Positions 4,890-54,750 of a stretch of 64,000 bases of DNA are shown in pieces (position 1 is the stretch's first letter; every line of letters begins with the position of its first letter). The notes beneath the pieces were generated by a model that ran no database searches, had not been told where the DNA came from, and was given only the letters and a program-made list of their open reading frames with translations. The DNA is taken from assembly GCF_026283965.1 (NCBI RefSeq), contig NZ_JAPDPD010000004.1:62001-126000 (forward strand), read 5' to 3'. Position numbers and translations under genes: made by a program. The stretch is from Dyella subtropica (GTDB lineage: Bacteria; Pseudomonadota; Gammaproteobacteria; Xanthomonadales; Rhodanobacteraceae).

Positions 4890-6878
4890 TTACCGCCGCG
4901 TCTTGCCGACAAACCCCAGCGCCTTCATCCACTGCGTATCCCGGGCCAAAGTCTGAACCCGCTGCTTTCGGTAGTGACTTTCGGCGCGGTCCTGCACATG
5001 GGTGACCCAGCGGCGCAACCATCGGCGACTTTGCCGGCGATCCGGCACCAGCCATTTCATTAGCCAGCGGCCCGGCTTGGGGGCGAAGCGCAGGAACAGC
5101 TCATCGTCCACGCTGACGATAGCCTCCGCGCTACCGGGGTCGCCCTGGCGTGCGCAGCGGCCGAACAGCTGACGATCGACGCGCGCCGTCTCGTGGAACT
5201 CGGTAAGTATCACGTGCAGGCCACCGGCCTGTTCGACTTCCGGCGTCAGCTTGATATCGGTGCCGCGGCCGGCCATGTTCGTCGCCACCGTGATCCGGCC
5301 TGGCTGCCCGGCCTGGGCGACTGCCTCGGCTTCGCTCTTGTCCTGTCTTGCGTTGAGCATGGTGTGGACGATGCCGTCGCGTTCCAGGCATTGGCTGAGT
5401 ACTTCGGATGCCTCGACCGAGCGGGTGCCGATCAGCACGGCGCGGCCGCTGGCGGCGACTTCGGTGGCGCGGCGCGCGACCTCCTGCCAGCGCTGGGTCG
5501 CGTCGGCGCAGATGCGATCGGCCAGGCGTGCCCGCCGGCTCGGTTTGTGGGTGGGGATGCGCGTCACTGGCAGGCCGTAGGTCTGCTTTACTTCCGTCGC
5601 GACTTCCTGCGCGGTGCCGGTCATGCCGCAAAGCAGGAGATAGCGCCCGAAGAAGCGCTGATAGGTGATCTGTGCCAGCGTGCGACGCTGGCCGGTGACT
5701 TCGCAGCCTTCCTTGGATTCGATCATCTGGTGCAGGCCGCGCTCCCAGGTGCGGTCGGGCATCACGCGCCCGGTCGATTCGTCGACGATCTGCACCTTGC
5801 CCTCGGCGAGGATGTAGTGCTGGTCGCGCTGGAAGCAGTGCACCGCGGACAACGCCTTTTGCACGAATTCGTCGCGCCACAGCGGCGACCGCCACAGGCC
5901 GTCATAGGCGGCAGTGACGTCGCGCACCTGCTGCTTGCCTTGCGGGGTCAACCAGATATCGCGGTGAGTGCCCTTGATGTAATCGATGCCGGGTTGCAGC
6001 GACTGGGCCAGTGCAATCGATTGAGAGTAGATCGCCGGATCCAGGTCGTCGGGCAAGGTCTCGGAGATGATCAGCGGCGTGCTCGCCTCGTCGATCAGCA
6101 CGCTGTCTGCCTCGTCGATGATCGCCACATGCAGGCCGCGCAGGATGGGCGGTTCGCCACGCCGTGCGCCGGCCAGCTCACGCAGGCGCTGCTGGGTCAG
6201 CGAGGCTTCGCCCAGCGCGATGCAGTCCTTCAAATAATCGAAGGTCAGTTCTTTGTTGGAGACATAGGTGATGTCGCACGCATACGCCTCGCGTCGCTGC
6301 GCCACCGGCATGTCCTGCAGCACCACGCCGATGCTGAGGCCGAGAAAATCGAACAGCGGTCGGTTGTGTTCGGCATCGCGCTCGGCCAGATAGTCGTTCA
6401 CGGTAACCACGTGCACCGCGGCGCCGGTGACCGCGGCGGTACAGGCGGCCAGCGTGGCGGCAAGCGTCTTGCCTTCGCCGGTGGACATCTCCGCCAGTCG
6501 GCCTTGCAGCAGCGCGCGGCCGGCAAGCAGCTGTACGTCGTGATGGCGCATGCCCAGCGTGCGACGCGAGGCTTCGCGGATAAGCGCGAACGACGCTGCG
6601 AGTTGCTCGTCGGTAAAACCCTGCCGATGGGTTTCGCGGGAAACCTCGTGCAAGCGATGGCGCAGGCCTAGGTCGTCACAAGCAGCGGCTGCGCCTTCGA
6701 GCGCGGCCGTGGCCTGCAAAAAAGCGCGTGCGCGGCGACCGTCGAAACGGGGAAGCTTGCCCAGCCAGGCGCGTAGCCTGTCTTCCCAGGCCGAGCGCTT
6801 GGGGTCGAGCCGCTCCAGATAAGGGCCATCGCCAAGTCGCAGTTCGCGACGAGCCAGCAATGCACGTACGTCAGACAC
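4890..6878 (-). CDS. Short SecA-like translocation ATPase (SecA paralogue)
   Basis: A 662-residue SecA homologue, against about 900 for the housekeeping protein. The motor core is intact: Walker A STGEGKT (132-138, Lys137), VTVNDYLAERD, Walker B IIDEAD (253-258), the ESTGRVMPDRTWERGLHQMIE block (367-387), GMTGTA (418-423), NMAGRGTDIKL (534-544), and the arginine-rich RQLFGRCARQGDPGS (569-583). A preprotein cross-linking segment is recognisable at about 270-365. After nucleotide-binding domain 2 only some 65 basic residues remain, so the helical wing, the two-helix finger and the C-terminal zinc-binding tail of ordinary SecA appear absent. It starts with GTG at 6876-6878 and overlaps the upstream M50-HlyD gene by 8 nt, so the two are probably translationally coupled. 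Its likely role is to power export by the TolC/adaptor complex encoded upstream. It is not the essential SecA. Confidence 0.92.
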   Translation of the reverse strand: MSDVRALLARRELRLGDGPYLERLDPKRSAWEDRLRAWLGKLPRFDGRRARAFLQATAALEGAAAACDDLGLRHRLHEVSRETHRQGFTDEQLAASFALIREASRRTLGMRHHDVQLLAGRALLQGRLAEMSTGEGKTLAATLAACTAAVTGAAVHVVTVNDYLAERDAEHNRPLFDFLGLSIGVVLQDMPVAQRREAYACDITYVSNKELTFDYLKDCIALGEASLTQQRLRELAGARRGEPPILRGLHVAIIDEADSVLIDEASTPLIISETLPDDLDPAIYSQSIALAQSLQPGIDYIKGTHRDIWLTPQGKQQVRDVTAAYDGLWRSPLWRDEFVQKALSAVHCFQRDQHYILAEGKVQIVDESTGRVMPDRTWERGLHQMIESKEGCEVTGQRRTLAQITYQRFFGRYLLLCGMTGTAQEVATEVKQTYGLPVTRIPTHKPSRRARLADRICADATQRWQEVARRATEVAASGRAVLIGTRSVEASEVLSQCLERDGIVHTMLNARQDKSEAEAVAQAGQPGRITVATNMAGRGTDIKLTPEVEQAGGLHVILTEFHETARVDRQLFGRCARQGDPGSAEAIVSVDDELFLRFAPKPGRWLMKWLVPDRRQSRRWLRRWVTHVQDRAESHYRKQRVQTLARDTQWMKALGFVGKTRR

Positions 6879-9015
6879 TGAAATGACTCAGGAACACTTG
6901 GCGCAGGCGCCGCAGCATCTGTTTGGCCAACGGCTCGCTACCGTGATCGAAACGCACATGCACGCGCTCGCCGAAGGCCGGCGCTGCATCAGGCGGCAAA
7001 GCAAGGTCGACGATGAACACGCGCTGCAGCGTCTTCAGCCCGTTGGTGTCGTTCGGGTTGGTCGGGATGACACCGCCGCCGTTCAAACCCAGCGCCGCCG
7101 TGGGCAGCTCGTCGACCGCACCGGGAAAGCTGCGCACCACGTGCGAGTCATGCACGTCACCCAGCGAATCGGACAGACGCAGGGTGACGCCGTTGAGTCG
7201 CTCGTGCACGAGATCGATGTCGTCCTGCTGCACGACCACGCGCACCAGCAACTCGCGCGGCGCCAGTACGTAGCCCAGCAGTTCACCCTTTTTGTAGTAG
7301 TGCCCGGGCATGTCCTGCGCCGTAGCAACGATCAGCTGGCCGTCGTCGTTTGCGCCGCCGACCAGACGTGCCGCCCGCGCCTGTGCGCGCTCCATGACTT
7401 CGCGTGCTTCCTGCAACTGACGCCCGGAAACACCGGCCTTCACTGGATCGGTGAACTGCTCGGCGTCATAGCGCGCCTGCGCCTGTTCGAACTTGGCCTT
7501 GTTCACCGCCAGCTCGGCCTGCAACTGCGGATTGGCGAGTGTGTAAACCGGCTGACCGCGAGACACGGCTTGTCCCGGCTGCACGAGCCACTGCGCGAAG
7601 AAGCCATTCTCCTGCGCGTGCAGCATGGCGTGGTTGGGCAGCCACACCACGCCTTGCGCATGCGAGCGCAACGGCACCGGCGCGAACAGCAGCAGTCCGC
7701 ACAGCACGCCGAGCGTTACCAGCGTGCGGCGCACCGCGCGACTGCGGCAACGTTGCAGCGCAGGGCTTTCGCGAAGATGCTTCCAGCCTTTGCGCACCGG
7801 CATGCCGATCAGGCTGATCGCGCTCCAGCAGGCCATGATGACGCCGACGATGAAGAACTTGCCGGCCACCAGAAAGATCACCGACACCGTGACAAACGTG
7901 CGATAGCACCACGCCAGCGGGGTGTAGAAGAACAGCCAGCGTTGCTCTGCCGGCGTCTCGTCGGGTTTGACGGCGTCGGTGGCACCGAACGCATAGCGAT
8001 CGAGCAGATACGTCCACCAGGCCTGGCCGCGCTGCGCCAGGTTGGGCATCTCGATCAGGTCGGAAAGAATGTAGTAGCCGTCGTAGCGCAACAGCGGGTT
8101 GCCGTTCACTACCAGGGTCGACACGCCGCCGATCACCATCGTGTTGAATGCCACCGCGCGCAGCACGCCGGGCTCGGCGAGCAGCCAAACATGCAAAGCC
8201 AGCGCCGCCAGGAACAGCTCCACCAGCATGCCCGCCGCGGCGACCAGTGCGCGACGGTACTTGGACGGAAAAGCCGCCGACGACGAGGCTTCCACATAAG
8301 GCACCGGCGCGAAGATCAGGAACATCAACCCCAGCTCTCGCACGGCGCCGCCCCAGCGCTTTACCGCAAAGCCGTGGCCGAGTTCGTGCAACAGCTTCAC
8401 CACCGGATACACCGCCAGCATCACCCACAGGTTGCTGGAGGACAGCACGCGATCCGACAAGTTGTGGGTCAACTCGCCCCAATGCTGCGCGGCGAGCGCC
8501 AAGGCAGGCAGCATCACCGCAAGCCACAGCAGCGCGCCGAGCGGACCAAAGCACCAACCGACATAAGGCGACAGGCGGGTCAGCAGGCGATCCGGGTTGA
8601 ACAGCGGTAGCTTCAGGCTCATCGGATTGAGCAGCCACTGGCGCAGCGTTTCCGAACGCTTGCGTCGATGGCGATCCAATGCGTCGGCGGAGTCGGGCGC
8701 CACATCGGTCTGCAACAGATCGGCCGCGTGCAGTTGCACCAGCAGATCCACCACTTCCGGTTGCGTACAGGCATCGCGCGACTCAGAAGCGTTGGCGCGT
8801 TCCCACAGCGACTGCACGGTGTGTCGACCGTCCATGCCGGCGATCAATGCGTAGGCGGCGGTGGAGAGGCGATAGACGCGCCCGCCGGTCTGGTCCTGCA
8901 CCACGTACCAGGGACGGCCGCGGAATACGACGCGCTGTACAACGGCATAGGGCATCAGTCGCGGGCGGAGCTGGGCGACGCTGTGCCAGGAGGGGCTGAA
9001 GGGGCTACGCGCCAT
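6871..9015 (-). CDS. PqqD-like / M50 metalloprotease / HlyD-barrel fusion membrane protein
   Basis: A 714-residue inner-membrane protein with three parts. Residues about 22-105 resemble a PqqD-like winged-helix domain. A polytopic M50 (site-2 protease-like) domain follows, with the zinc motif HELGH at 210-214 and the downstream NPLLRYDGYY region, whose Asp would be the third zinc ligand. After the last membrane segments a periplasmic HlyD/membrane-fusion barrel runs from about residue 470 to the end, with a short coiled coil around AELAVNKAKFEQAQARYDAE. The ATG at 9013-9015 is preferred because GGGGTGG sits just upstream; a start at 9051 would begin inside a repeat element. It overlaps the SecA-like gene by 8 nt. 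It probably forms the inner-membrane part of an export complex. Whether the protease cuts cargo or only serves as a structural scaffold cannot be told, but the zinc ligands are present. Confidence 0.9.
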   Translation of the reverse strand: MARSPFSPSWHSVAQLRPRLMPYAVVQRVVFRGRPWYVVQDQTGGRVYRLSTAAYALIAGMDGRHTVQSLWERANASESRDACTQPEVVDLLVQLHAADLLQTDVAPDSADALDRHRRKRSETLRQWLLNPMSLKLPLFNPDRLLTRLSPYVGWCFGPLGALLWLAVMLPALALAAQHWGELTHNLSDRVLSSSNLWVMLAVYPVVKLLHELGHGFAVKRWGGAVRELGLMFLIFAPVPYVEASSSAAFPSKYRRALVAAAGMLVELFLAALALHVWLLAEPGVLRAVAFNTMVIGGVSTLVVNGNPLLRYDGYYILSDLIEMPNLAQRGQAWWTYLLDRYAFGATDAVKPDETPAEQRWLFFYTPLAWCYRTFVTVSVIFLVAGKFFIVGVIMACWSAISLIGMPVRKGWKHLRESPALQRCRSRAVRRTLVTLGVLCGLLLFAPVPLRSHAQGVVWLPNHAMLHAQENGFFAQWLVQPGQAVSRGQPVYTLANPQLQAELAVNKAKFEQAQARYDAEQFTDPVKAGVSGRQLQEAREVMERAQARAARLVGGANDDGQLIVATAQDMPGHYYKKGELLGYVLAPRELLVRVVVQQDDIDLVHERLNGVTLRLSDSLGDVHDSHVVRSFPGAVDELPTAALGLNGGGVIPTNPNDTNGLKTLQRVFIVDLALPPDAAPAFGERVHVRFDHGSEPLAKQMLRRLRQVFLSHFSV

Positions 9016-9039
9016 GACGCCACCCCATGCAACCCACCG

Positions 9040-9062
9040 GTAGGAGCGCACCCTGTGCGCGA
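9040..9062. repeat. Single REP-like element inside the export operon
   Basis: GTAGGAGCGCACCCTGTGCG and three further bases, identical to the left arm of the 3938-4033 element. It sits in the 75-bp gap between the GAF-HlyD and M50-HlyD genes, where it could influence mRNA stability or relative expression. Confidence 0.8.
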
Positions 9063-9090
9063 TGCCATCTCGCGAGGACGCCCCTCACGC

Positions 9091-10989
9091 CTAAAGCCCC
9101 CAATTCCATAAGCTCAACCGCACCCAATCGAGCAAGCCGTGCAGCAACACCCAGCCGAGTTTGCGACGCCCCACGCCGATCTTGCCCACACCCTCCATGC
9201 CGGGCAGCAGCAGCGGCGATTCGTGCCGCAGGCGCGCCTCTACCCGGTAGAAATTCTTGCCGTCCTGCGCGGTCGCCACCGGCATGATTCTGGCCACCGT
9301 AAACGGCATCGGATCGCCAGCGAGTCCACTCATCACCAGCTCGCCTTGCTGCCCGGTCTGCACCTGGCTGACATCGCGCTCGTCGACCTGCAGAATGATC
9401 CGGTAACTATGCAGCGGTGCAATCTCGAACAGCTTCTTGCCTGCTTCCAACGGCGTACCCACCTGCTGGCTGAGATCACCGCTGACAATCACGCCGTCGT
9501 ATGGCGCCAGCACCTTCACGCGCGCCAATTTGTCATCCAGCAAATCAAGCTGCGCCTGCGCTTCGTTCAATTGCGCGCTGACTACCTGGATCGCGGTCAA
9601 GTCGTGGCCGGCCATCGCCTCGCGCAGCTTGTTGTCGTACTGATCACGCTCGCTGGACCACTTCGCGCGCTCCACCCGCAAGTCATGATCATCCAGCTGC
9701 GCTAGCGGCTGGCCTTTCACCACCGTGTCGCCGGCACGCACGAAGCCGGCGGCGAGAAAGCCTTCGAACGGGGCTGCCGCAACGCGCTGGATTTCGCCTT
9801 CGGTGACGGTCTTGGCCGAAACGCGATACGACACCGGCAGGAATACCAGTATGGCGATCGCCAAAACCGCCAGCGCTGCGCCGAGCTTCCAGAGCAGATA
9901 GCGCGGACCAAGCAAGGCGCCGAGGAAGCGCTTCGCCTCATCGCCGAATCGTTGCAGGGAGTTGCGCTCGGCATCGCGGCGCTGAGCCACCACCGGTGCA
10001 AGCAAGGCGGCGAACGTCTCCAGCCATTTGCGCTCCACCTCGGTGAACGCCTGTTCCGGCCCGCGCTCCAGCGTCAGTACAGCCATGCAGCGTGCTTGCT
10101 GCGACACCGGAAGCGACAGCAGTCTGCCGGCGCCGGTACGTTGCAGCAGCGCGGCGTGGGCGCGATAGCTTTCGGCGGGCGCCTCACTGTCCGGTTGCGC
10201 CACTTCGATCGGCTGCGCCAGATCGCAGGTTTCGCCCATGGCGGCGATATAGGCTTGCACCAGCGGCGAGGACTTCTCGAACGTGGCGGCTTCGGACAGC
10301 GCCGCCAAACGCACCTGCGCTTCGCGCACCAGGCCGATGGCGACCCGCGTGCAGTCAAAACGCCGGCGCAATTCGTTGGACAGGTCGAACAAGGCTTGCT
10401 GGAAGCGTTCGTGACGCAACGAAGTAGCGATAGTTTCCAACACACCCAGCGAGCGCGTGCTGGATTCCACCGCCGCGTCATGCTCGCGCTTGCCGAGCAG
10501 ATTGGTGAGCCAGGCGCTGCTCCAGTGCAGCTCCCGCAACAGTACGGGCAGCATGCCGTCCGGCATGGGTGTTTCCAGCACCACGGCCCCGGCGATATGT
10601 TCGCTCACCGCGATGGGCGCAGCGATGTGCCATGTACCGGGCGTTTCCGCGAGGGGTTGTATGGCGACACGGCGTTCGACCAGCGCGCGCTGCACCGCGT
10701 CGCCCATGCGCGACATATCGCCATTCGCCGCCGGCCACACCGCAATCGGTACGAAGTTTTGTCCATCGGTGGATTCGACCAGCACGGCCGCCTGCGCAAT
10801 GACCGGAAACTTCTCGCGCAGTAGCGCAAGCCAGGCATCGCAGAATTCAGCGGAATGGCGCGCGCCGACGAAGCGTTGCCATGGGGGCGCCATGTCGGAG
10901 GGCGCGACTTCGGTCGAGCCGGGCTCGATCGAATCGGGCTCGATCGAACCGGGCTCGGTCGAATCGGGCGGTGAGGGCAGGGCGCTCAT
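9091..10989 (-). CDS. GAF-domain HlyD-family membrane-fusion (adaptor) protein
   Basis: A 632-residue adaptor with an unusual cytoplasmic N-terminus. Residues 8-28 are pentapeptide repeats; two GAF-like domains follow at about 45-165 and 185-335. One transmembrane helix (366-386) leads to a periplasmic HlyD/biotinyl-lipoyl barrel with a short hairpin: AAPFEGFLAAGFVRAGDTV, then LDDKLARVKVLAPYDGVIVSG, then the beta-barrel segment. Ordinary HlyD proteins have only a short cytoplasmic tail. Its ATG overlaps the stop of the TolC-like gene as ATGA (10986-10989), indicating translational coupling. Its expected partners are the TolC-like channel and the M50-HlyD protein. The GAF domains could sense a small molecule or gate assembly, but no ligand-specific residues are evident. 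Confidence 0.9.
   Translation of the reverse strand: MSALPSPPDSTEPGSIEPDSIEPGSTEVAPSDMAPPWQRFVGARHSAEFCDAWLALLREKFPVIAQAAVLVESTDGQNFVPIAVWPAANGDMSRMGDAVQRALVERRVAIQPLAETPGTWHIAAPIAVSEHIAGAVVLETPMPDGMLPVLLRELHWSSAWLTNLLGKREHDAAVESSTRSLGVLETIATSLRHERFQQALFDLSNELRRRFDCTRVAIGLVREAQVRLAALSEAATFEKSSPLVQAYIAAMGETCDLAQPIEVAQPDSEAPAESYRAHAALLQRTGAGRLLSLPVSQQARCMAVLTLERGPEQAFTEVERKWLETFAALLAPVVAQRRDAERNSLQRFGDEAKRFLGALLGPRYLLWKLGAALAVLAIAILVFLPVSYRVSAKTVTEGEIQRVAAAPFEGFLAAGFVRAGDTVVKGQPLAQLDDHDLRVERAKWSSERDQYDNKLREAMAGHDLTAIQVVSAQLNEAQAQLDLLDDKLARVKVLAPYDGVIVSGDLSQQVGTPLEAGKKLFEIAPLHSYRIILQVDERDVSQVQTGQQGELVMSGLAGDPMPFTVARIMPVATAQDGKNFYRVEARLRHESPLLLPGMEGVGKIGVGRRKLGWVLLHGLLDWVRLSLWNWGL
10910..10969. 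repeat. Four 15-bp tandem repeats in the GAF-HlyD gene
   Basis: Units such as TCGATCGAATCGGGC are repeated four times with one or two changes each. They encode the pentapeptide series around GSIEP-DSIEP-GSTE at the protein N-terminus. The unit is related to repeats in other genes of this window. Confidence 0.9.
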
Positions 10990-12524
10990 CGTTCCTTCTC
11001 CTGCACGTGGCTGGCGAGGTGGAGAGTGCTTTCCTCATGGGCGTCGAAGCATTGATCCAGCTCGTCGATATCCATGGCCGTCAGGTCGCCCAGCGTGGCC
11101 CGCAGCTTGATGTACGAAGTGAGCTGCTGGTAGCGCCCTTTGCGCATGTCGCGACGCGCCGCGGCGATCTGTTGCTTCGCAGTGAGCACATCCGCCTCGG
11201 TCTTTACGCCGCGCGCGGTGCCGCGCTCGGCAACCGCCAGCGCGCGCTGGCCCGATGCCAGGGCCATGCCCGCCGCCTTGGCCTTGGCCGTGCCTCCGCG
11301 CCAACCGAGAAAAGCATTCTTCACGTTGAGGATGGCCTGGCGTCGCGCGGCCTCCAGATCGTCGCGCGCCTTGTCGCGCAAGGCGATCGCCTCGGCCACC
11401 TTGGCTGACTGGGTGCCGCCGGAGTAGAGCGGTACATTCAACTGCAAGCCCACCGTAAGCGTGCGGATGTGGTAACCCGTCTGGCCCGGAAAGTTGCCCA
11501 CGGCCTGATCGTTGTTGCCGTAGCTGGCCACCATGTCGAGGGTGGGTTGGTGGCCGGCGCGTTGTTTGCTTATCTCGTCTTCGGCGGCGGCCAGCGCACG
11601 TGTCGCGGCGCGCAGGGCCGGGCTATGCGCGTCGATCTGTCCGAGCCATTGATCCAAGTCGCTACCGACCAGTTCGGGCAAATCCACATCGTCGCGCAGG
11701 AATGGCTGTTCGAGGCCATTGGCCGAACCCACCCATTGCTCCAGTGCGGCGAGTTTGGCCGCCTGATCCATCTCGGCCGACGTCTCGTCCGCCGCGGCTT
11801 CCTCATACTTGGCGCGTGCATCGTCGGCCTGCGGTTCGCCCTGCGTGCCGAGCTCGGCGCCACGGCGCGCGATGTCCCATTGCGCATGCAAGGCATCGCG
11901 CTGCGCGGTGGTGAACGCCACTTCGTCGCGCGTTTCCATCAGATCGAACCAGGCCGTAGCCAGCTTCTGGTAGAGCTGCTGCTCCGTGTCCTTGAGCTGG
12001 TACTCGGCCTGCTGGGTCGTGTCGTGCGCTTGATCGAGCGTGGCGATATTGGCCGGGTGCCAGATCGGCTGGGTAAGGCTCAGCTGATTGGTGAGGCTGT
12101 GATAGCGGTCGTGCAGCGGCTTGTTCTTGTCCAGCGTTTCGTAGCGACGTCGATTGCCGTTGCTGGTGGCGGTTCCGGTGATCTGCGGCAGCATGGCGCC
12201 ATAGGCTTGTCGTGCGCGCGCCTTCGAAGCCTCGAGATTCGCCTTTGCAGCGCGGTAACCGGGCTCGCTGTCGTGGGCAATGGCGAACAGCTCGCCGAGC
12301 GAAGTGACGTTTGAACTTGCGATAGCGAGATGGCTGCCCATCAGGCCGAAGCAACCTATCGCCATAGAACAGATCGCCATGGACAAAGGCGTGCGCTTCA
12401 CCTTGGCGCCTGCGACGACAGCCGTCGAACCTGCACTGGCCGAACCCGCTCTGGTTGGGCGTGCTCTGGTTGAGCCTGCTCTGGTTGAGCGTGTTCCGTT
12501 GGCATGAAAACGATTGCGTCGCAC
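10986..12524 (-). CDS. TolC-family outer-membrane channel protein
   Basis: An outer-membrane efflux protein of the TolC fold, forming the exit duct of a tripartite exporter. The tandem half-repeats expected of TolC are visible: one begins around SLGELFAIAHDSEPGYRAAK with ARQAYGAMLPQITGTA, and the second contains SPALRAATRALAAAEDEI, HQPTLDMVASY and TVGLQLNVPLYSGG. GTG at 12522-12524 is proposed as the start because AGGGA lies 6 nt upstream; this gives 512 residues. In-frame starts at 12596 or 12569 would lengthen it. A signal peptide (about MAICSMAIGCFGLMG...LAIASS) is preceded by some 45 basic, repeat-coded residues, an unusually long n-region. First gene of the operon with GAF-HlyD, M50-HlyD and the SecA-like ATPase. 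Confidence 0.9.
   Translation of the reverse strand: MRRNRFHANGTRSTRAGSTRARPTRAGSASAGSTAVVAGAKVKRTPLSMAICSMAIGCFGLMGSHLAIASSNVTSLGELFAIAHDSEPGYRAAKANLEASKARARQAYGAMLPQITGTATSNGNRRRYETLDKNKPLHDRYHSLTNQLSLTQPIWHPANIATLDQAHDTTQQAEYQLKDTEQQLYQKLATAWFDLMETRDEVAFTTAQRDALHAQWDIARRGAELGTQGEPQADDARAKYEEAAADETSAEMDQAAKLAALEQWVGSANGLEQPFLRDDVDLPELVGSDLDQWLGQIDAHSPALRAATRALAAAEDEISKQRAGHQPTLDMVASYGNNDQAVGNFPGQTGYHIRTLTVGLQLNVPLYSGGTQSAKVAEAIALRDKARDDLEAARRQAILNVKNAFLGWRGGTAKAKAAGMALASGQRALAVAERGTARGVKTEADVLTAKQQIAAARRDMRKGRYQQLTSYIKLRATLGDLTAMDIDELDQCFDAHEESTLHLASHVQEKER
12431..12505. repeat. 15-bp tandem repeats at the 5' end of the TolC-like gene
   Basis: Units such as CTGCTCTGGTTGAGC are repeated about five times, the outer ones diverged. 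They encode a basic STRAG/PTRAG-like series before the signal peptide. Confidence 0.85.
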
Positions 12525-12651
12525 CTCAAATCCCTTCGCAGTGCCCGGAGGGAGAGGCTGGCCAGTCATAGGCCGCGACGGCCGGGCAGTCGCCACGAAG
12601 TGCGTGGCGGCAAACCCTCGTCAATCCGGTAAATCCCCCTGAAGCCTGGGC

Positions 12652-12680
12652 ATTTTGGCATCGCACGTATGGCAGTGCAA
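12652..12680 (-). promoter_or_regulatory. Candidate sigma70-like promoter of the TolC-to-SecA operon
   Basis: On the minus strand TTGCAC (12680-12675) and CAAAAT (12657-12652) are separated by 17 bp, about 130 bp upstream of the proposed start. The intergenic position fits, but only part of the consensus is matched. Confidence 0.35.
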
Positions 12681-12789
12681 AGACTTACGCGAGACTGGCT
12701 TGGCACAGGTTGATTGACATCGACATGCGCTACCATGCGCGCTCATTCGCCAGCGCTTGGCGTACTGTTTTCCAGTCTCAGGGGGAGTC

Positions 12790-13104
12790 ATGAAGCGCAT
12801 CATGGGAGCGGCCGTACTGGCGGTCGTCCTGGCCGGCTGCCACACCACCGGCCAGAAAATCACCAAACTCGATCCGGGCAGCACGCGCGAACAGGTCGTT
12901 GCGGCATTGGGGCGCCCCGATGCCATGCGCACCGTGGGTGAATTCGAGGTCTACACCTATCTCGCGCGTAAGCGCACACGGCTATCCGTTGTCCATACCG
13001 ATTACACGGTGATTCTCAAGGATGGTCAGGTTGTGCAGTACGGGCCCGGCCTTGCGCGGCGCGAGGGCGTGCATAGCATGGTGATCGAGCAGCCAGAGTC
13101 TTAG
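12790..13104 (+). CDS. Small outer-membrane lipoprotein, SmpA/OmlA (BamE)-like
   Basis: A 104-residue lipoprotein. The ATG at 12790 follows a strong GGGGGAG site (12781-12787). The signal peptide ends in a clear lipobox, LAGC, so Cys16 would be lipidated. The mature part, with KLDPGSTREQVVAALGRPD followed by beta strands (VYTYLARKR, DYTVILKDGQVV), matches the SmpA/OmlA fold that includes BamE. It is shorter at the C-terminus than, and different from, housekeeping BamE. It is followed 63 bp later by the membrane-protein gene and is divergent from the TolC-like operon. A role in outer-membrane assembly of the neighbouring export complex is possible but is inferred from position only. Confidence 0.85.
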   Translation: MKRIMGAAVLAVVLAGCHTTGQKITKLDPGSTREQVVAALGRPDAMRTVGEFEVYTYLARKRTRLSVVHTDYTVILKDGQVVQYGPGLARREGVHSMVIEQPES

Positions 13105-13167
13105 GGATGCTCTGATGAGTTCTGCGTAGGCATGCCCATTCAACTCGACCGTGGAAAAGGGGTCTCT

Positions 13168-14508
13168 ATGCGCGACCGGCCATTGCGATCGATATGGGGC
13201 GTGCTCTTCTTGCTGGTATGTATCGGCAACGCGATCGCCTCTCCACCCTCCTCACCAAGGGAGGAGAGCGCGCCGCTCGTGCGAGAAATCCTGGATGGCC
13301 CGGTGCCCGCAGAAGCATTTGCCCTGCATACCGCCGCAGCGACGATGTTCGAACTCGGGTTCGCCGAGGATGCGCGGCGGCTTGAATCCTATGGCGAGCG
13401 CACCGCCTTTCTCCACTTGCTCAATCGACCCTACACGCCGGCAGCGACCGTGCGAGAAGCGTTGAAGCAGGAAGCAACGGCTCCGGTTTCCCTGGATCAA
13501 TTGCGCACCGATTTCATGCACGAGGGCTACTCGATTCAAGCGAGTACCGCGGAAGACAAGCAAGGCCCGGATCGCCGCATGGCCGATCTCGGGCGGGGAA
13601 CGGCCGGTGTCGAGATAGTGTCTTTGCAGCCCGGACTTTGGGGCGCGTTTGATGCAAGGGTCACGCATTCAACCGGTCATTCGATCGGTGACGCCTATTT
13701 TCTCTTTGTATCGGCGCTCATTCGAAATAAGACCGTTGAATCGGGCCAATTTGAGTTGGGCATTCCTGTTGGCGGGCGAATGCCGATGAGATGCAAGTTC
13801 GGCAGTGTGGCCCCCGGAGGGACGGGGCAGGTTTATTGCCTGGTGGATATGGTCAGCGTTCCGCAAGACAAGGAACGCATCATCGCGACGCTCATCCGTA
13901 TGCTGAGCGGCGGCCCGATCAACGATGCAAGCTCGTACGGCTTCAGGCCGGATGCTTTTCCCTTTCGGGTCACTAACCAAACGGTCGCGCAGTCGGCCAA
14001 TCCTGCAGAGCGGTTTGGTGCTGACGCAAGAACCGCAGCGCAGCACATCATTGCCGGTGCGGGTTGCCGAAAGCTTGGCACTTGCGGCGGCGTGTTTGAG
14101 GGGTACGCGACGAACTCAGGCGCATGGGGCCTGGCGGTGACGACCCTTTTCATGGTCTGGACGGTAAGCCGCCAATGGCATGGCACGGGAGGACGTGGCC
14201 GCGTTTTCTTCTACCTTTTCATAATCTACTTTCTTCTGGTGACGCTGGCCGCCGCATTGAGCCTGATCGATCCGCCGGCCAGCGCGATGCCGAGCAGATA
14301 CTACGCCGGACTCTTCAGCAGCCTCGCGGTGGGCCTGCTGTCCATGCCCTGGAGCTATTTCAAGCATTTGCTGGACGGTGCAGCGCCCTACGCGGCCCTG
14401 CGTGACTTGAACAGTCACGACTTCGCGCTTCAGTGGTTCTTTGTTCTGGTCAACCTGTCCTATTTGGGGTTGATGGCGCTGTTCAGCCGTTTGCCGAAGA
14501 GGCGGTAG
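13168..14508 (+). CDS. Membrane protein of unknown function with periplasmic domain and four C-terminal helices
   Basis: A 446-residue protein that I do not recognise. The ATG at 13168 is preferred because AAAAGGGG precedes it. A signal peptide (about residues 1-25, IWGVLFLLVCIGNAIAS) is followed by a soluble region of some 290 residues with several Cys, likely periplasmic (CRKLGTCGGVFEG near its end). Four hydrophobic segments follow, including LAVTTLFMVWTV, VFFYLFIIYFLLVTLAAAL, LFSSLAVGLLSM and WFFVLVNLSYLGLMALF. It lies directly after the lipoprotein gene and is convergent with the giant-protein gene, between the two halves of the proposed export system. It may be an accessory component or unrelated. 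Confidence 0.8.
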   Translation: MRDRPLRSIWGVLFLLVCIGNAIASPPSSPREESAPLVREILDGPVPAEAFALHTAAATMFELGFAEDARRLESYGERTAFLHLLNRPYTPAATVREALKQEATAPVSLDQLRTDFMHEGYSIQASTAEDKQGPDRRMADLGRGTAGVEIVSLQPGLWGAFDARVTHSTGHSIGDAYFLFVSALIRNKTVESGQFELGIPVGGRMPMRCKFGSVAPGGTGQVYCLVDMVSVPQDKERIIATLIRMLSGGPINDASSYGFRPDAFPFRVTNQTVAQSANPAERFGADARTAAQHIIAGAGCRKLGTCGGVFEGYATNSGAWGLAVTTLFMVWTVSRQWHGTGGRGRVFFYLFIIYFLLVTLAAALSLIDPPASAMPSRYYAGLFSSLAVGLLSMPWSYFKHLLDGAAPYAALRDLNSHDFALQWFFVLVNLSYLGLMALFSRLPKRR

Positions 14509-14542
14509 AGGGAAGGCAGGAGAATCCGGTAGCTGCACACCT

Positions 14543-14658
14543 GTAGGAGCCCACCCTTTGGGCGACCGGACTGGCAACGGTCTCGCAAGATGGCATCGCG
14601 CACACGGTGCGCTCCTACGGGCTAGCAACGCCTCTGTAGGAGCCCACCCCGCGGGCGA
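14543..14658. repeat. Three REP-like elements in the convergent intergenic gap
   Basis: GTAGGAGCCCACCCTTTGGG (14543 onward), an inverted TCGCGCACACGGTGCGCTCC (ending at 14618) and GTAGGAGCCCACCCCGCGGG (14636 onward) fill the gap between the two convergent genes. Confidence 0.85.
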
Positions 14659-14700
14659 TGATCTTGCGCGGCAACGTCGTTGAATTCGCCGCCCGGACCT

Positions 14701-14732
14701 CTCCTCCATTCACCCATGGGTAAATGGAGGAG
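14701..14732. terminator. 32-bp near-perfect palindrome, candidate bidirectional stem-loop terminator
   Basis: CTCCTCCATTCACCCATG continues into its own reverse complement with one mismatched pair, giving a stem of up to about 14 bp. It sits 45 bp past the stop of the giant gene and 193 bp past the convergent membrane-protein gene. There is no T-tract on either strand, so it may be an mRNA-stabilising or Rho-assisted structure. Confidence 0.4.
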
Positions 14733-14777
14733 ATGTGCCCAAATAGGCGCCGTTCGGTTCGAGGAAACGTCAGCCTC

Positions 14778-15085
14778 TTAGTTCGACCGCTTCACCACCA
14801 ATCCACTGCGCTGAGCCAAATCCGCCGAACTCAGCAACGGCTGCTCGACCAACGCATTCCACCAGGCGCTGCCGATGTTCTCCGAACTACCCATGTCAGT
14901 CGGATAGGTGTTGACCCAATCCAGCGACGGTCGGCGCTGCTGGTTGGTCGGATCAATGCCCAAGCCCTGATTGACGATGATGTAGCCGTAGCTGCGCTCG
15001 TCGTACTGGTGACCGGCACTAGCCGTGACGAATACGGTCTGGCTGCGGCTGCACTCGCCGTCATCGTCGTCTTCATCCTCGTTGC
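14778..15085 (-). other. Unique C-terminal tail of the giant protein
   Basis: About 100 residues (12435-12536) after the last cadherin-like repeat: an acidic NEDEDDDDGEC stretch, then a non-repetitive segment with YGYIIVNQGLGIDP, DWVNTYPTDMGSS and WWNALVEQPLLSSADLAQRS. It is neither a repeat nor a known anchor, and could carry an export, retention or anchoring signal. Confidence 0.6.
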
Positions 15086-18000: not shown

Positions 18001-21000
18001 TTGAGCGTGAGCGTGCCGTGCGCGGGACCCGAGACGATCTTCGGCAGCGCGCCGAACACGTTGGTGTCGTTGGCCAGCACGTTGCCGGTGACGGTGCCAT
18101 CCTCGTAGCCGGTGAATGCTGCATCGTTGGCATGCGGTACGGCGTAGGTCGCCATGTCGCTGATCGTGACGTGGCTGCCCGCGGGGCCGAAGCCGATCAG
18201 GTCGAACGACAGGTTCACCGCGGTACCGGTGGGCACGTTGTGCATATCGATGATGTACGTGCGGCTGCCGTCGGCGTTGGTGACGAAGGTGACGTTAGAA
18301 CCCAGGTGCGCACTGCCATCGCCTTGCAGGTTGAGCAGGGCGTCGGTGTGATTGAGGTCGAACGTACCGCCGAGCGATGCGCCGGTCTTGGCGTCGAGCA
18401 GTGCCACTTCGAACGCGTCTTCGGGCATGTCGCCGGGATTTTGCAGGCCGACGTTGCTGACCGTGAAGCGCAGGAATTTGTCCAGGGCGCCCAGTTGGAA
18501 TTGCTGGCTGATCCGGGTCTGGCTGGTGGCCGACTCGCTCAAGGTCGCTGTGGTGCCGGCGACAGCAACCGCACCTTGCGTGCTCCAGGCTTGGGTATTG
18601 GAAAAATCGCCGATAAAGCCTGCCGTGCTGAAGGCCGGTGCCTGCATGCCGGTACCCGTGGGCGTTGACAGCGCCTGGGTGAGGCCAGCCGACAGGACGA
18701 CATGGCCCGCCGTGTTGCCGGTGACGGCATTGGCTGCAACCGTGGTAGTGCCAAACAGATCGGTAAGCGACGGCAGACGGCGCACGCCCGGATCCAGCGA
18801 TGCATACATCACATCCAGCGGGTCGCTGCTATGTCCCAGGCCCAGTGCATGACCGAATTCATGCAGCATCGCGGTGAACAGATCCAGCTTCCCGTAAGCG
18901 GGAGACAGGCTGGAGCAGGTCCATTGATTGCCGGTATGGGCGCCGTCGAATGCGAAATTGTCCGTCGGCGTGGGATCGACGAACCAGCCGCGACCGCCAC
19001 CGCTTGCATCCAGCACGATCTGGTGGCCTGTGGTGTCGCCGACATCCACGCCCTGCAGGTTGCCCACCGATACCGTCACATCGGCGAGCACATTCGGATC
19101 GGCACCGGCAGCAAGCCAGGCGGCGCGAACCGAAGGCAGGAGCTGGTTGATATCGGCCTGGGTGAGCGTGCTGGTGGTAGACGAGGCCGCAGCGCCTTGC
19201 GTCTGCAGCGCGGCGGTGCCGAGGAACTGCAGATTGTCCAGGTGAACGATATCGCCCAATACACCCGCGGATTCGCCGCTGCCAGGCTTCACGACAAACT
19301 TCAGGCGTCCCTGTGCATGCAGGCCGCTGATGCCAGACAGAACGATGTTATGGAAATTGCCGTCGGCATAATTCTTCAGCGCTATGCCACCGTTGCTGAT
19401 GTCAATGCCGGCACCGGTGCCATCGCCGCCGTTGTCCTGGGGAATCCAGAAGACCTGCAGGACGGAGTTGGCGTCCGTTGCGCGTGTAGAGATTTCGAAC
19501 GACAGCGACGTGGCTGTTGGCGGAATCGCCATGCGATCGTGCGTGACCGAGTAATTGTTGCCTTGGCCAAGCACATAGCTGAGGTCCCAGTCGCCGCATG
19601 AATTCAACGCAAACAACGAGTGAACAAGGCTGGCCGTGATGGGATTGCTGACCAATTTCGCGTAGGCGTCTCCCACGGCTCCCGTGAAGGACAACCACGT
19701 GTCGTTATTACCCGTCAAGTCGATGCCAAGCCGGTCGCGAATATCGGACAAGGACATGCCGAGATGGCTGACGATGGCGCTCAGCTGGCTTTCCAGGCCA
19801 GAGGACGCGATGGCATTGACAATATTGGCGATGGTCGCCGCGATGGACGGATAGACCGTAGTGCCACTGCTGATGAAGCTCAGCGCCCCCAGGTTAACGC
19901 CTCGGTTAATGGGGTTGCTGTTGATATCGGCAACAATGCTTGCGTAATTGCTGGCAATACCCGCGTTGAGCTGCGGAGAAACCTGCTGGGCAATCAGGTT
20001 GAACAGCTTGGTGATGGCGTCGTTGACCTTGCTGTCGCCGGTGTTGCCGAAAGCCTTGCTGAATTTGAAGACAAAGTCGTTGAGATTCCAGTTTGTGCGC
20101 AGATCGAGGAATTGCGTACGGCTCGCGCGATCGTCATGGCTGCCGGCGTAGTTGCCGCCAAGAGCCTCGCCATTGTCCAGGCTCCAGCCGGGTACGTCGT
20201 ACGACTGCAGGAAGCGTCCATCGAAGCCATTGCGGCTCTGCTCGAAGGTGCCGTTGAAGATTTGCAGGCCATTGTTGACGGTCTGGTTGCCGCTTTCAAA
20301 GTCCTGCAAGTTCGAGCCGCTTCCGCTGTGCAGCAGGGTGACGATCGGCCGCTCCGAATTGTTGTAGTTGTTGTCGACCTGGCCTGTTCCCGAGGAAATC
20401 AGCGGCGGCCGCAGTGAGGAGCCGCCACCGATGATGGAATAGAACCAGCCTTCGCCGCCGCCTTCCCATGACACATCGGTATACGACTGGTCGCGCTGGT
20501 TTTGGTCATAGGCCATGACCTGCTGGGTGCCGTACATCACTGGTTGATTGTCTTGCAGCGCAATGTTCTGCCGCTGGGAGATGTACCAGGGCAGGAAATT
20601 GGGGCTCATGCCCGACGCCGCGTACAGGTTTGCCAAGGTTGGCGATATAGCGTCCAGGACCGCCGGGTTCAAAACGTACCCGTCGTTGAAGGCCGTCGAG
20701 TTGGAGAACTGCCGCCAGAAGGGCACGCCATCGCTGACATCCCCGTTCGCTTGCGACAGCCTGGGCGCATTCAGGTCGAGCGCACCGGTACCGAGGTACC
20801 AGTTCTGCACCATCCCGTGCGGGCCGGCAGTAAAGGCCTTGAGGCCCTGAAGGAGGCCGTTCTGGATACCCGTGAAGCCAGGCAGACCCGTGAGGTCGAA
20901 GTCGATGTTGGCATCGCTGACGATCTTCTTCGCACCACCTTGCAGCCAGCCCTCATAACTGACATTGCTGCTGTCGTTGCGTAGCTGCGGCTGGGCCTGA

Positions 21001-48000: not shown

Positions 48001-51000
48001 GCGGTATTGGCGATGTCGCCCGCCACGATCAGCTGATAGCGGCCAGCGTGCGGCAGCACCAGTTTGAAGTTGTCGGCGCCGGTGAGCGCCGTGGACGCGA
48101 GCACCTTGTTGCCCGCTGCATCCACCAGCCAAACCGTGGCCTTGCCGCCGCTGAGGCCGCTCACATGCAGCGTGAGGTAATCGCCTGCTTGCGCGTCGAT
48201 CGCATAGGCCGCCGTCGCATTGCCTGGAACGAGTTTGATCGACTGTGCCGTGCCGGTGGGCAAGGCCGCAGCCGCGCCAAGGTCGAGCAGATTGAAGGCG
48301 AAGTTGCCGGTGGCCTGGCCGATCGGCACCAGTTGCAGCCGGTAGGCGCCGATGGCATTGAGCGCCACCGTATCGTTGACCGCTGCCAGCGCGGTGTCTG
48401 AAACAACGGTTCCGGTCGGGCCGAGCAGGCGCCAGATGATGTCGGTGCGAGCACTCAGGCTCGTGAACAGCACGCGTGTGGGTGCCGCGAGGCTGAAATC
48501 GTATTCCTGCTGTTGGGCGACCGAGGCGATGCTGCCATTGATGGCGCTGCTCAGCGCGAGCGGCTGGGTGACAGTAACGATCTGGTGCAGCGTGAAATTC
48601 GCCGTTGTCGCGCCCGATGCGAGGGTCAGCACATACTGGCCCGAACCGAGATGGAACGGGTTGCTGTTGTTGCCATTGAGCGTGCCGGACTGCACGTACT
48701 GGCCTTGCATATTCAAAAGCTGCCACTGCACGCTCTGGCTGCTGGTGGCGACGTCCATGCGATAGTCGCCATCCGCCGGGGCGGTAAAGACGTAGGCTGG
48801 CGATTGGCCGTTCGCAGCGAAGGTTGCGGCGATCTGCTGATCGACAGCGACGACGGGCTGTGCCGTGATGTCGCCCAGCGTGAAATGGAACGGGCCGGTG
48901 GATAGATCGTTATAGCCCACCGTCAGCACATACGTGCCGGCAGGCAAGGTCAGCGGGGCGGGAGCACCGTTGAAGCTGTGCAGCGAGCCCTCCGAGCCGC
49001 GCGGGCCGCTGAGGCTCCATTGCAAACGGTTGTTCGCCACCGGGCTCATCAGGAGCGTGCCCGGCGCGGTCAGCGTGAAGCTGTACTGGATGGTCTGGCC
49101 GGGCTGGGTGATGCTGCCGGCGGTATCGGTGCCCAGCGTCAGCGCAGCAGGCGTGGTGACGCGATGTCCCAGGGTAAAGCTGAAGGAGCTCGTTGTGGCC
49201 GTAGTGCCATTGACCGACGTGGGCGAAAACACCAGCAGGTATTCACCGGTGCCGGGCAGCGCTATATCCGGCTGGAAACTGTTGTAGTTGGAATTGCCGA
49301 TGGCGATGGTGTTGCCGTTCGGCGCGATCACGCTCCACTGCGTATTGAAAGCGGCACCGCTGAAATTGCCCTGGAAGTAATAGTGATCGCCGGCATTGGC
49401 GCTGAAGCGGTAGCTGGTCGATTGATCGCTGGTCAGCGTGCCCTGCGTGGGTGTATCGAGGCTGATTGCCTGCGCTGCGTCACGGTTGCCCAGGCGGAAG
49501 CCGAAGGAAGCCGGCGTATCCTGCATATTGCGCAGAATAAGCGTGTAGTTGCCCGCCGGCAGGGAGAGGCGTTCGCTGCCGAAGCCGTTCCAGCCATATT
49601 GAGCACCGCTGCTGGAGCGGATCACCCATTGCAGATAGTTTGTCTGGGTGCTGGTGCTTTGGCTGGGATCGAAAAGCAGCGTGCCGGCCTGGTTGAGCGT
49701 AAAGCTGTATTCGGCCAGGCTCTGGCGTCCGGTAAGGCTGCCGCTGACGAGGTTGTTGAAGCTCAGCGGCGCGGTGGTGACATCCTGCTTGCTGAGTGTG
49801 AACGTGTCGGTGCGCGAGGCGGTGCCGTCGTACTTGTAACCGAGGTCAAGCAGGGTATAAACGCCGTCGGCGGGAATGGCGAAGACGCTGCCTGGCGTAT
49901 CGTCCGAAAGCGAGGGCAGGACGTTGCCGTAGGCATCGACCAGTTGCCAGCTGTTGTAGTAGTTCCAATTCGAATTGAGCACCAGCTTGCTGCCGGCGCT
50001 CGCTTGCACGCGATAACCCACGGCACTGCTGGCAGGCGAGCGCGTTACCGTGGTGGCCTGGCCCAGCTGCAGCAAGGGCAGGGTGGAAATATCCTTGACG
50101 CTGAAAGCATAGGCGCCGCCGCCCGCGTAGTTCCATGAGTATTGCGAGCCTTGCAACGTCAGCGCGTAGTCGCCAGGCGGCAGCAACCGCACCGTGTCCT
50201 GGTTCGAGAGCGCCTGCTGGCTGAATTCGGTGCCACGTGGGCCGACCAGGGTCCATAGGACGTTGTTGCTGGTCGGCGTATCGAACAGCAGCGATGCGGC
50301 GCTGCTCAGCGTGAAACGGTAGGTCTTGGTGGCATCCCACGTCGCCAGGGCGCCTGCGGTCATCGCGCCCAGCGACAAGGCGTCGCCCGCCGGCAGCGGC
50401 GACGGTGCGACATTGCCGGTGGTGTCCAGTTCCACCTGGTAGGCGACGTTGGAGGTATTGCCCACCGCACCTTCGATCAGCAGCGTGTAGGTGCCGCCGG
50501 CGGCAAGACTGATCGGGCTGCTGTCGCTGGCGAGATTGTTCGCACCTGCGACGTCATGGCCATAAGCATCAACGAGGCGCCAAGTCGCGCTACCACCGGT
50601 AACGCTCACGCTGTGCAGCTTGACGCTGTCGCCGGCCACCGCCGTGAAACGGTAAGCGGCCGAGCCGTTGCCGGGACTGAGCGTTCCGCTGACGGGCGTG
50701 CCCTGGGTAAGCGCGCTCGCCGCAGCCAGGTCGTTCAGAGCGAACGCGTACGCGCCGGTGGCATTGCCGTTGCCCTGCACCGTGAGGGTGTAATCGCCAG
50801 CCGGCGCATTGATCACGCTGTAGTTGCTGCTGCCGTCGCTGCTGCCGAGCGCACGCTGCTGCACCAGTTGCCCACTAGGGCCGGTCAGCGACCACAGGAT
50901 GTCATTGCGCGCACTCTGCGGATCAAAGGCCAGTTGCGTGGCAGCGGCAAGATGGAAGCTATAGACGGTCGACTGGCCAGCCAGCGCGATGGCGCTGGAA

Positions 51001-52388: not shown

Positions 52389-52455
52389 GTGTTGCTCCCA
52401 GTGTTTGTCCGCCGGTCGGGCGGATTGGTGCGGCATAGAGAATGTGGTGAATGCG

Positions 52456-52484
52456 AAAAGGTGCCTGGCCGTTATTGCGGCCAG
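52456..52484 (-). promoter_or_regulatory. Stem-loop between the adaptor gene and the giant gene, possible attenuator
   Basis: CTGGCCG-TTATTG-CGGCCAG (52465-52484) is a perfect 7-bp stem. On the minus strand it is followed, 5 nt later, by TTTT. It lies in the 145-bp gap and could reduce readthrough into the 37.6-kb gene. Confidence 0.35.
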
Positions 52485-52533
52485 TGCGGGATCGCCTTCG
52501 TTGTTGCTTGAAAGGCGATCCCTGCCATCTTGT

Positions 52534-53403
52534 TTATGGGCCTAGCGTTGCCTTGCACTTGACGCCCGAGGGCAGGTCAAGCTTCGGGTTGGGCAAATCC
52601 ATGAAAACGACAAAGGTGCCGCTGGCCGCATCGACGATGCGGTCGACGCTGGTGATCTTCGCGGCGTAAGGCTGCTCGGGTTGAATCTCGGATACGACCG
52701 TGGCGGCCATGCCGAGCTTGGGCACGCCAAAGGCGCGCATCGGCATCACCACGCGCACGTGCAACGGATTGAGTTGCGCGACTTTCAATACAGCGTGCTT
52801 GGTGGCGTTGGGCTCGAAGATTTCGCCCGGCCACATCATCTGATCCACCACCACGCCGTCGAACGGACTGCGGATGGTGCGCAGATTGAGCTGGCTGGAC
52901 TGCTGCACGTATTCGAGGCGCGCCTGCTCGCGATTTTCCTTCGCGACCACCAGCTCGGCCTGCGCCTGTTTGAATTCGGCCTCGGCGTCATCGCTGTCCT
53001 GATGCGACATCAGCTTCTCGGCCGCCATGTCGCGGCGGCGAGTGAATTTGCGCTGGGAGAATTCGATCTTGCTCGCGGCCAGTTGGGTCGGTCCGGCGAG
53101 CTGCGATTTGTAGTGAGCAAGGTCAGCCGCGGCCTGTTCGGCGTGCGACTCCAGCGAGGCGAGCACCTGGTTGCGACCGACCCGGTCGCCGCGTTTGACC
53201 AACACATGATCGAGCACACCACTGACCGGAGCGCCCAGCTCCACCGTCTGCATCGGTTCGATCAGGCAGTCGTAGGCGACACCGGCATGAAGCGCGGTGG
53301 AGGCCAGTAGCAGCGGAGAAAAGGTGGCACCGAGAGTTGCGGCTTTGAAGGCAAGAATCCGTGCGCCGCGACCTCCCAGAACTGCTCTGGGTGTACGAGT
53401 CAT
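52534..53403 (-). CDS. Periplasmic HlyD/RND-type adaptor protein
   Basis: A 289-residue membrane-fusion protein. The ATG at 53401-53403 follows AGGGA at a slightly long spacing; an in-frame start at 53457 is less likely. A basic n-region and hydrophobic core (about residues 15-40, AATLGATFSPLLLASTALHAG) form a signal sequence. Then come a lipoyl-type half motif (PVSGVLDHVLVKRGDRVGRNQVLASLE), a coiled-coil hairpin (about 90-165) and the second lipoyl half (LRTIRSPFDGVVVDQMMWPGE), then a beta-barrel domain. The protein is short, ending after the barrel. First gene of a two-gene unit with the giant protein, it probably joins the TolC-like and GAF-HlyD proteins in the export complex or delivers the cargo to it. 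Confidence 0.9.
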   Translation of the reverse strand: MTRTPRAVLGGRGARILAFKAATLGATFSPLLLASTALHAGVAYDCLIEPMQTVELGAPVSGVLDHVLVKRGDRVGRNQVLASLESHAEQAAADLAHYKSQLAGPTQLAASKIEFSQRKFTRRRDMAAEKLMSHQDSDDAEAEFKQAQAELVVAKENREQARLEYVQQSSQLNLRTIRSPFDGVVVDQMMWPGEIFEPNATKHAVLKVAQLNPLHVRVVMPMRAFGVPKLGMAATVVSEIQPEQPYAAKITSVDRIVDAASGTFVVFMDLPNPKLDLPSGVKCKATLGP

Positions 53404-53465
53404 TCCATTGTTCCCTGTTTCGCGACCGTCAGCGGAGCCCCTGACCCCACCGTACAAATTCGCGC

Positions 53466-54613: not shown

Positions 54614-54750
54614 CTAACGTCGCGAGCGGCGAAATGAAATAAAACGGCGGCATCCTAGCCTGGGCGTGACATGCTGGATAAGCGTGGCCTGTTTCTTTGC
54701 GCGCGCTTTCCGTCGCTATGCACCCGTTCGTGCACGCTCAAGGAGGCTGT

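Follow-up and report, generated by a model that had tools for sequence, protein, structure and literature searches.

Giant adhesins such as LapA and SiiE are exported by type I secretion, and the retention module of the LapA type is cut by LapG. How LEPR-XLL proteins of more than 10,000 residues, which show no recognisable signal peptide, leave the cell is the question on which the locus described here bears. It lies in a 64,000-nucleotide stretch of Dyella subtropica DNA (assembly GCF_026283965.1, contig NZ_JAPDPD010000004.1, positions 62,001 to 126,000), called the window, in which each coordinate is the contig coordinate minus 62000. The window encodes a LEPR-XLL protein of 12,552 residues, a TolC-type duct, a small HlyD-type adaptor, an adaptor with GAF and HlyD domains (GAF-HlyD), a protein combining a PqqD-like domain, an M50 protease and an HlyD barrel (PqqD-M50-HlyD, or M50-HlyD), and a short SecA-like ATPase. 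With a probability of roughly 0.6, this locus is a dedicated machine for export and surface display of one giant protein, operating without an ATP-binding cassette (ABC) transporter. The exporter as a unit is well supported, the SecA-like protein as its motor only partly.

Each part of the set is a member of a known protein family. Type I secretion of giant adhesins likewise uses HlyD adaptors, a TolC duct and a giant, cysteine-poor, repeat-rich cargo, and RTX repeats also occur in some relatives of the window giant. Unlike type I systems, loci of the kind found in the window (type A, defined below) show no ABC signature by motif (0/55; 1/35 in the sister type B) and combine M50-HlyD and three barrel proteins with an N-terminal LEPR leader. 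The SecA-like protein has the ATPase core of canonical SecA and of the accessory SecA2, with about 45% identity to the SecA of its own genome over residues 59-551, but it ends at residue 600 of Bacillus subtilis SecA, adjoins HlyD and TolC genes and accompanies a cargo without a recognisable signal peptide. The M50 leader proteases of ribosomally synthesised and post-translationally modified peptides (daptide, NF041824; YydH/LiaK, NF058609) share the PqqD-like and M50 core, aligned over residues 44-416, whereas M50-HlyD scores below both cut-offs, is fused to an HlyD barrel and accompanies a giant cargo. If the reading is true, protein export proceeds here with no ABC transporter, the SecA motor has a second function, and a leader reader of the PqqD type serves a giant protein rather than a small peptide.

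A Vibrio LEPR-XLL protein of about 8000 residues shares the N-terminal LEPR-XLL with the window giant and has RTX and serralysin domains at its C-terminus; the parts of that report at hand name no exporter (PMC10868602). For the Big proteins RSP and RSP2 of IncHI plasmids, the available parts of two papers report export through the type IV secretion system of the plasmid, with no HlyD or TolC (PMC6764697, PMC8730810), and a third source gave no term matches (PMC11268884); these proteins were not used as evidence. No paper on the gene set was found in the open-licence PMC literature by titles and abstract starts, a range that does not include preprints.

The elements of the locus are as follows.

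4890-6878, minus strand: short SecA-like ATPase gene, 662 residues (SecA_DEAD E 3.2e-98, Pfam)
6871-9051, minus strand: PqqD-M50-HlyD gene (Pfam, hidden Markov model (HMM) scans, starts of relatives)
9091-10989, minus strand: GAF-HlyD adaptor gene (GAF 3.6e-10, HlyD_3 2.2e-15, Pfam)
10986-12596, minus strand: TolC-type outer-membrane duct gene (OEP 8.6e-49; TIGR01844 above cut-off)
14778-52436, minus strand: gene of the giant LEPR-XLL protein, the presumed cargo, 12,552 residues (LEPR-8K 34.2 bits, cut-off 17)
14916-14930, minus strand: PSLDW in the last 50 residues of the giant, a variant of the C-terminal motif of type A (motif reading)
52227-52292, minus strand: LEPR leader region of the giant, proposed recognition element (NF012209 match at G000:C41:114227-114292)
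52534-53457, minus strand: small HlyD/RND-type adaptor gene, HlyD3 (in-frame ATG at 53403; Pfam, NCBIfam)

The TolC, GAF-HlyD, PqqD-M50-HlyD and SecA-like genes form a tight minus-strand operon, with overlaps of 4 bases between TolC and GAF-HlyD and of 8 bases between M50-HlyD and the SecA-like gene. The genes of the giant and the small HlyD lie upstream, and two plus-strand open reading frames (ORFs; 12757-13104 and 13132-14508) separate TolC from the giant. All six minus-strand genes listed in a preliminary description of this DNA are present, their identities backed by translations and HMM matches; only the start of the M50-HlyD gene at 9051 gives way to a likelier one near 9015, where relatives start. 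The TolC-type duct, the small periplasmic HlyD, GAF-HlyD and PqqD-M50-HlyD would together form a trans-envelope conduit.

The giant contains CARDB and Ig/cadherin-like repeats and 14 cysteines in 12,552 residues. The LEPR-XLL model NF012209 scores it above cut-off, and LEPRVLLSGD starts at residue 53 (window 52251-52280). The preliminary description had seen neither a Sec signal peptide on the giant nor an ABC or RTX signal in the window, and these statements hold: a Kyte-Doolittle scan of the first 600 residues gave no Sec-type hydrophobic stretch, GGxGxD occurs 0 times in the giant, and no ABC gene is present among the annotated window ORFs, the long plus-strand ORF from 58655 being judged by eye only. 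Nor did Pfam find an energised inner-membrane transporter (RND, MFS or ABC pump type) among the five exporter proteins. LEPR-XLL is matched once in the genome, whose contig C22 has a separate SecA in a frame of 955 codons. A matrixin-type HExxHxxGxxH site lies at residue 11192 of the giant (window 18831-18863, minus strand; Pfam Peptidase_M10).

Co-inheritance of the gene set and its two types

Co-occurrence was scored in 397 Pseudomonadota genomes of minimum completeness 90, and every locus examined is likewise from Pseudomonadota. A strong M50-HlyD was defined by at least 446 bits in the genome scan. The SecA profile matches 396/397 genomes, and among the matches listed the short form was recognised from its frame length and matched span, with at most three candidates scored per genome; in G237 the copy contains a stop and covers 167-660. 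LEPR-XLL proteins occur in 39 genomes, strong type A M50-HlyD in 35, spread over 19 family codes, and a full-span SecA-like protein, among the matches listed, in at least 30. LEPR-XLL and type A M50-HlyD are found together in 32 genomes (expected 3.4; Fisher p 6e-37), LEPR-XLL and the SecA-like protein in 28 (expected 2.9; p 1e-31), and 29 of the 30 listed SecA-like genomes also have type A M50-HlyD (p 5e-37); because the genomes are related, these values are not true probabilities. The proposal that the set travels together is thus borne out, far beyond chance, within Pseudomonadota.

The associations have exceptions. LEPR-XLL is present without a strong M50-HlyD in 7 genomes, each with a weaker match (167-247 bits), and, among the matches listed, without the SecA-like protein in 11. 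Conversely, a strong M50-HlyD has no LEPR match in G002, G077 and G165, although the G165 giant does hold LEPRLLFSAT, and the SecA-like protein occurs without LEPR in G034 and G077. The longest LEPR-XLL frame among the matches listed, 19,427 codons, belongs to another genome (G061 C115 112865, minus strand).

Eighty stretches around M50-HlyD matches or LEPR ends were chosen, mostly for the highest-scoring matches, with weaker listed ones left out. The 92 annotated loci comprise 78 of these (L119 and L121 are short contig ends) and 14 of 15 named loci (all except L014). M50-HlyD exceeds 500 residues in 90/92; L017 has none, and the L127 copy is cut by the edge. Loci with M50-HlyD of at least 300 bits were called type A (55 loci), the others type B (35 loci), and in an unrooted FastTree tree of 79 of the 90 rows type B falls on one side of a 99% branch. 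A SecA-like gene, with divergent and broken copies included, is present in 52/55 type A loci (not in L113, L116 or, at a contig end, L149) and in 0/35 type B loci. The genomes of L113 and L116 have two SecA matches each, read as housekeeping SecA. Type B loci contain a small HlyD in 33/35 and a GAF-HlyD homologue in 33/35.

Scanning contigs with the SecA-like protein gave the 15 named loci, in 13 of which GAF-HlyD and M50-HlyD directly precede it. The closest named relatives are in Dyella, Pinirhizobacter, Frateuria and Fulvimonas, and the hosts include Trinickia, an Accumulibacter metagenome-assembled genome (MAG), a Solemya symbiont and an alphaproteobacterial MAG. Two of these loci count against a functional set and would suit the notion that the genes are neighbours without joint function: in a gammaproteobacterial MAG, a whole SecA-like gene (L017:9809-11857) stands at a locus where neither M50-HlyD nor the other genes of the set were found, and Fulvimonas soli has only a SecA-like fragment (L014:9944-11161), the rest of the set again not being found there. 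Given Fisher values of 1e-31 to 5e-37, read with the same caution, the 19 family codes of type A M50-HlyD and a LEPR code that follows the M50 type, this notion is very improbable.

The PqqD-M50-HlyD protein and the LEPR code

The window M50-HlyD matches HlyD_3 (E 1.3e-6), M50 (E 3.2e-5) and, at its N-terminus, PqqD (E 0.002), the last two under the Pfam cut-offs, and contains both HELGH and NGNPLLRYDG. HExxH is kept in 90/90 M50-HlyDs longer than 500 residues and the second M50 motif (NxxP..D), by pattern, in 84/90; the six others keep its aspartate by reading, as NPLLRYDA or NPLLRFDA (L128, L131, L133, L148), NITPFMRFDG (L122) or NLNGMMRFDG (L174). PqqD was matched at E<=0.05 in 27 of the 37 type A N-termini scanned, out of 52 prepared (best 1.2e-9). 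Among NCBIfam models, NF041824, the daptide leader protease, fits best (E 8e-35 to 9e-46), with 140 bits for the window protein and 121-157 for five relatives against a curated cut-off of 300. The kept M50 motifs, the PqqD matches and the homology to the daptide protease suggest that M50-HlyD is a leader-reading protease, beyond a mere adaptor. The N-terminal LEPR segment of the giant may be the leader bound by the PqqD-like domain, and it would probably be cut, or held and then released, by the M50 site.

The leaders take two forms, LEPRxLLS near type A and LEPRxLxD near type B. The eighth motif position is S in 21/22 type A leaders (N in 1/22) and D in 7/7 type B leaders, some of those counted being close relatives. 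On Citrobacter and Kosakonia plasmids, the leaders of the type B giants read LESRQLFDGA and LEPRMLFDGA. S also occurs in seven listed leaders without a nearby M50-HlyD on the contig (L024, L030, L031, L034, L037, L042, L048), and D in L045 and L046, from genomes with only a weak M50-HlyD; L025 showed no LEPR motif. Where type A lacks the SecA-like protein or its ATPase motifs, the S form is kept (G278 MEPRLLLSAE, G373 LEPRFLLSAD, G165 LEPRLLFSAT, Thalassospira IEPRILLSAD). Judged from these leaders, the code therefore follows the M50-HlyD type and not SecA, and reading of LEPR by the SecA-like protein is disfavoured.

Near the C-terminus of the giants, a short type-specific motif is a possible second signal. 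Among ORFs of at least 700 residues that pass a composition filter, with earlier windows of the same proteins as background, [ILV]xW occurs in the last 70 residues of 21/43 type A giants (background 3.4) and 0/21 type B giants, and [FL]xxQ[LIV] in the last 60 residues of 12/21 type B (background 1.1) and 4/43 type A giants (2.4); the patterns were picked by eye after the first set from overlapping data, and some ORFs are cut by the locus edge. In a later-fetched set, 4/7 stop-ending giants from type A M50-HlyD genomes hold [ILV]xW by reading (L214 ITW, L217 IRW, L220 IDW, L221 IVW; binomial 0.001), and a stricter scripted pattern matched 2/7. The window giant has PSLDW 50 residues before its end. 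A single C-terminal signal for both types was not found, each having its own motif.

Besides the choice and trimming of the C-terminal data, several observations weigh against the proposed exporter. PqqD was unrecognised in 10 of the 37 type A N-termini scanned and in two type B N-termini scanned singly; the L116 N-terminus, scanned singly, also gave no match. In L047, whose genome (G048) is of type A, the leader shows A at the eighth motif position, with no M50-HlyD nearby on the contig. That of L205 has D although only type A M50-HlyD is listed for its genome, G006 (at most two candidates scored per genome), and the L205 giant ends with type B-like motifs. Finally, no outer-membrane factor was recognised in 34/55 type A and 15/35 type B loci, which is partly due to locus edges and a small HMM.

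Tentatively, and at somewhat less than even odds, the locus may represent a class of secretion system in its own right. As a single polypeptide, PqqD-M50-HlyD would then act as receptor, as leader protease and as platform in the inner membrane, read a two-letter LEPR code (S/D) at one end of the giant and a type-specific tail at the other, and pass the giant to the HlyD-TolC duct, while a SecA core without the parts that push through SecY would have been recruited once as a motor.

HlyD-type adaptors and a TolC-type duct were confirmed in the window locus by Pfam and NCBIfam. GAF-HlyD has a GAF domain in its N-terminal half, one strong hydrophobic stretch (residues 369-387) and then the HlyD barrel; gating of export by a small molecule through the GAF domain is a guess. 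Pfam found no GAF in the single type B homologue scanned. A small DUF3467 gene adjoins the giant in many type A loci (for example L226:9753-10094 and L225:9863-10144). Of the loci scanned, 17 of type A contain it and none of type B does; six annotated plasmid loci carry it as well. In the window, whose first 60,000 bases were scanned for ORFs of 60-400 codons, it was not found. A role of its product as a SecB-like chaperone is unsupported by sequence (hhalign probability 0.6%; no PDB match below E 0.16).

The SecA-like protein and the route across the inner membrane

The SecA-like protein retains both nucleotide-binding domains (NBD1 and NBD2), with ATPase motifs present, and the preprotein cross-linking domain (PPXD). 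Because its alignment to B. subtilis SecA spans 28-600 and stops there, the wing domain, two-helix finger and C-terminal linker, which we take to lie beyond residue 600, are absent. In canonical SecA, the missing parts are those that engage SecY. The ATPase residues are invariant across a 12-row alignment, and all four motifs searched are kept in 42/48 SecA-like ORFs of at least 550 residues. The pattern missed one or two in L132, L145 and L148, and all four are missing in L114, L115 and L117. These three motif-less genes are kept in their operons (L114:8682-10484, L115:10742-12694, L117:3946-5811), where a scaffold role is possible.

In a SecA tree, 48 short forms are split from 13 housekeeping SecAs on one branch with full support, the placement of L114, L115 and L117 being unsure on very long branches. 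On the M50-HlyD tree, the SecA-bearing label needs 7 changes, compared with 26 in shuffles. The SecA-like gene thus appears to have been gained once and then lost or decayed in several lineages, as read with L160 (cut by a contig end) and the frame-broken L152 and L159 grouped with the decayed copies. By this distribution, since the SecA-like protein is absent from type B and some type A loci or motif-less there, PqqD-M50-HlyD is the invariant part of the machine and SecA the clade-specific part.

The preliminary description had proposed that the SecA-like protein and M50-HlyD jointly replace the ABC transporter as an obligatory inner-membrane translocator. The SecA-like gene in 52/55 type A loci, the 8-base overlap of the two genes in the window and the four motifs kept in 42/48 SecA-like ORFs would fit such a pair. 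This model is nevertheless unlikely, and as originally worded it is not supported: the SecA-like gene is absent from 35/35 type B loci, L113 and L116 and was not found in a Thalassospira plasmid locus, the four motifs are missing in L114, L115 and L117, and the C-terminal third of SecA is missing. A universal motor role is rejected on the same grounds, since several type A lineages and all 35 type B loci lack the gene or its motifs. Because the sister systems and these type A lineages do without the SecA-like protein or its ATPase motifs, it would be an accessory, optional motor; in type A, the truncated paralogue, lacking two-helix finger, wing domain and linker, would provide ATP-driven feeding of the chain.

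The inner-membrane route itself may be M50-HlyD or SecYEG. A further alternative holds that the giant crosses via housekeeping SecA-SecYEG, after which the locus processes the leader through M50 and moves the protein through HlyD-TolC, with the SecA paralogue tuning recognition. It would account for type B loci, where no dedicated ATPase gene was recognised (SecA-like 0/35, ABC signature 1/35), and for the roughly 45% identity between the SecA-like protein and the genome's own SecA over residues 59-551. A giant without a Sec-type hydrophobic N-terminus and a truncated SecA-like protein without the parts that engage SecY make it doubtful, and we regard it as improbable.

ABC transporters elsewhere, plasmid copies and flanking genes

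The preliminary description had named an ABC transporter encoded elsewhere as a threat to its model, and the evidence is divided. The genome of the window has an HlyB-type ABC transporter on contig C14 (1030 bits), with an HlyD-like gene beside it, which could act in trans and is a live rival to a dedicated exporter. In this alternative, an HlyB- or LssB-type transporter exports the giant, and the role of the locus is limited to retaining, cutting or releasing it at the cell surface. Also on its side, 30/39 LEPR-XLL genomes pass at least one of the three curated type I cut-offs (LssB in 21/39; among the 18 others, HlyB in 6 and PrtD in 5), giants of relatives can carry RTX repeats, and the window giant is cysteine-poor. 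Nine of the 39 genomes, however, pass none of the three; G052, G117 and G061 are near misses (492-591 bits), and G390, G048, G132, G064 and G088 score no higher than 382 bits with the HlyB model. The C14 transporter, moreover, has its own HlyD-like neighbour, and the locus its own outer-membrane factor and adaptors. Export by such a transporter is rated as quite unlikely, and a dedicated exporter remains the preferred reading.

Closed plasmids carry the same genes in order. The SecA-like HMM matches 8/9 type A plasmid loci viewed (L223-L226, L229, L230, L232-L234), the exception being the 26-kb Thalassospira locus, in a search at the locus only. In five of the nine, the annotation places a large gene next to the set; L223 and L224 have none in their gene table, which is incomplete, L229 begins at the record edge and L234 is unannotated. 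The plasmid SecA-like gene is variously annotated as SecA, translocase, DEAD/DEAH box helicase, hypothetical protein or prepilin peptidase.

Type B is found on Citrobacter and Kosakonia plasmids, with relatives on Escherichia coli and other plasmids, which extends the machine beyond rare taxa. Among 5,426 E. coli genomes, 24 match the Citrobacter type B M50-HlyD gene, and in 22 the match covers 80% or more of the gene; 21 of the places are on plasmids and 4 on chromosomes. On the Citrobacter plasmid (L227, L231), the type B exporter stands with a 4465-residue DUF4347/Ig-like giant.

In the window, polyketide-synthase-like genes border the exporter on both sides (2-1537, minus strand; 54697-64000, plus strand). 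By Pfam, the frame at 2-1537 encodes a ketoacyl synthase, and acyltransferase domains lie within 54697-58443; the next ORF, from 58655, was judged by eye alone. Downstream of the SecA-like gene lie 96-nt inverted repeats, 82% complementary, at 3412-3507 and 4719-4814.

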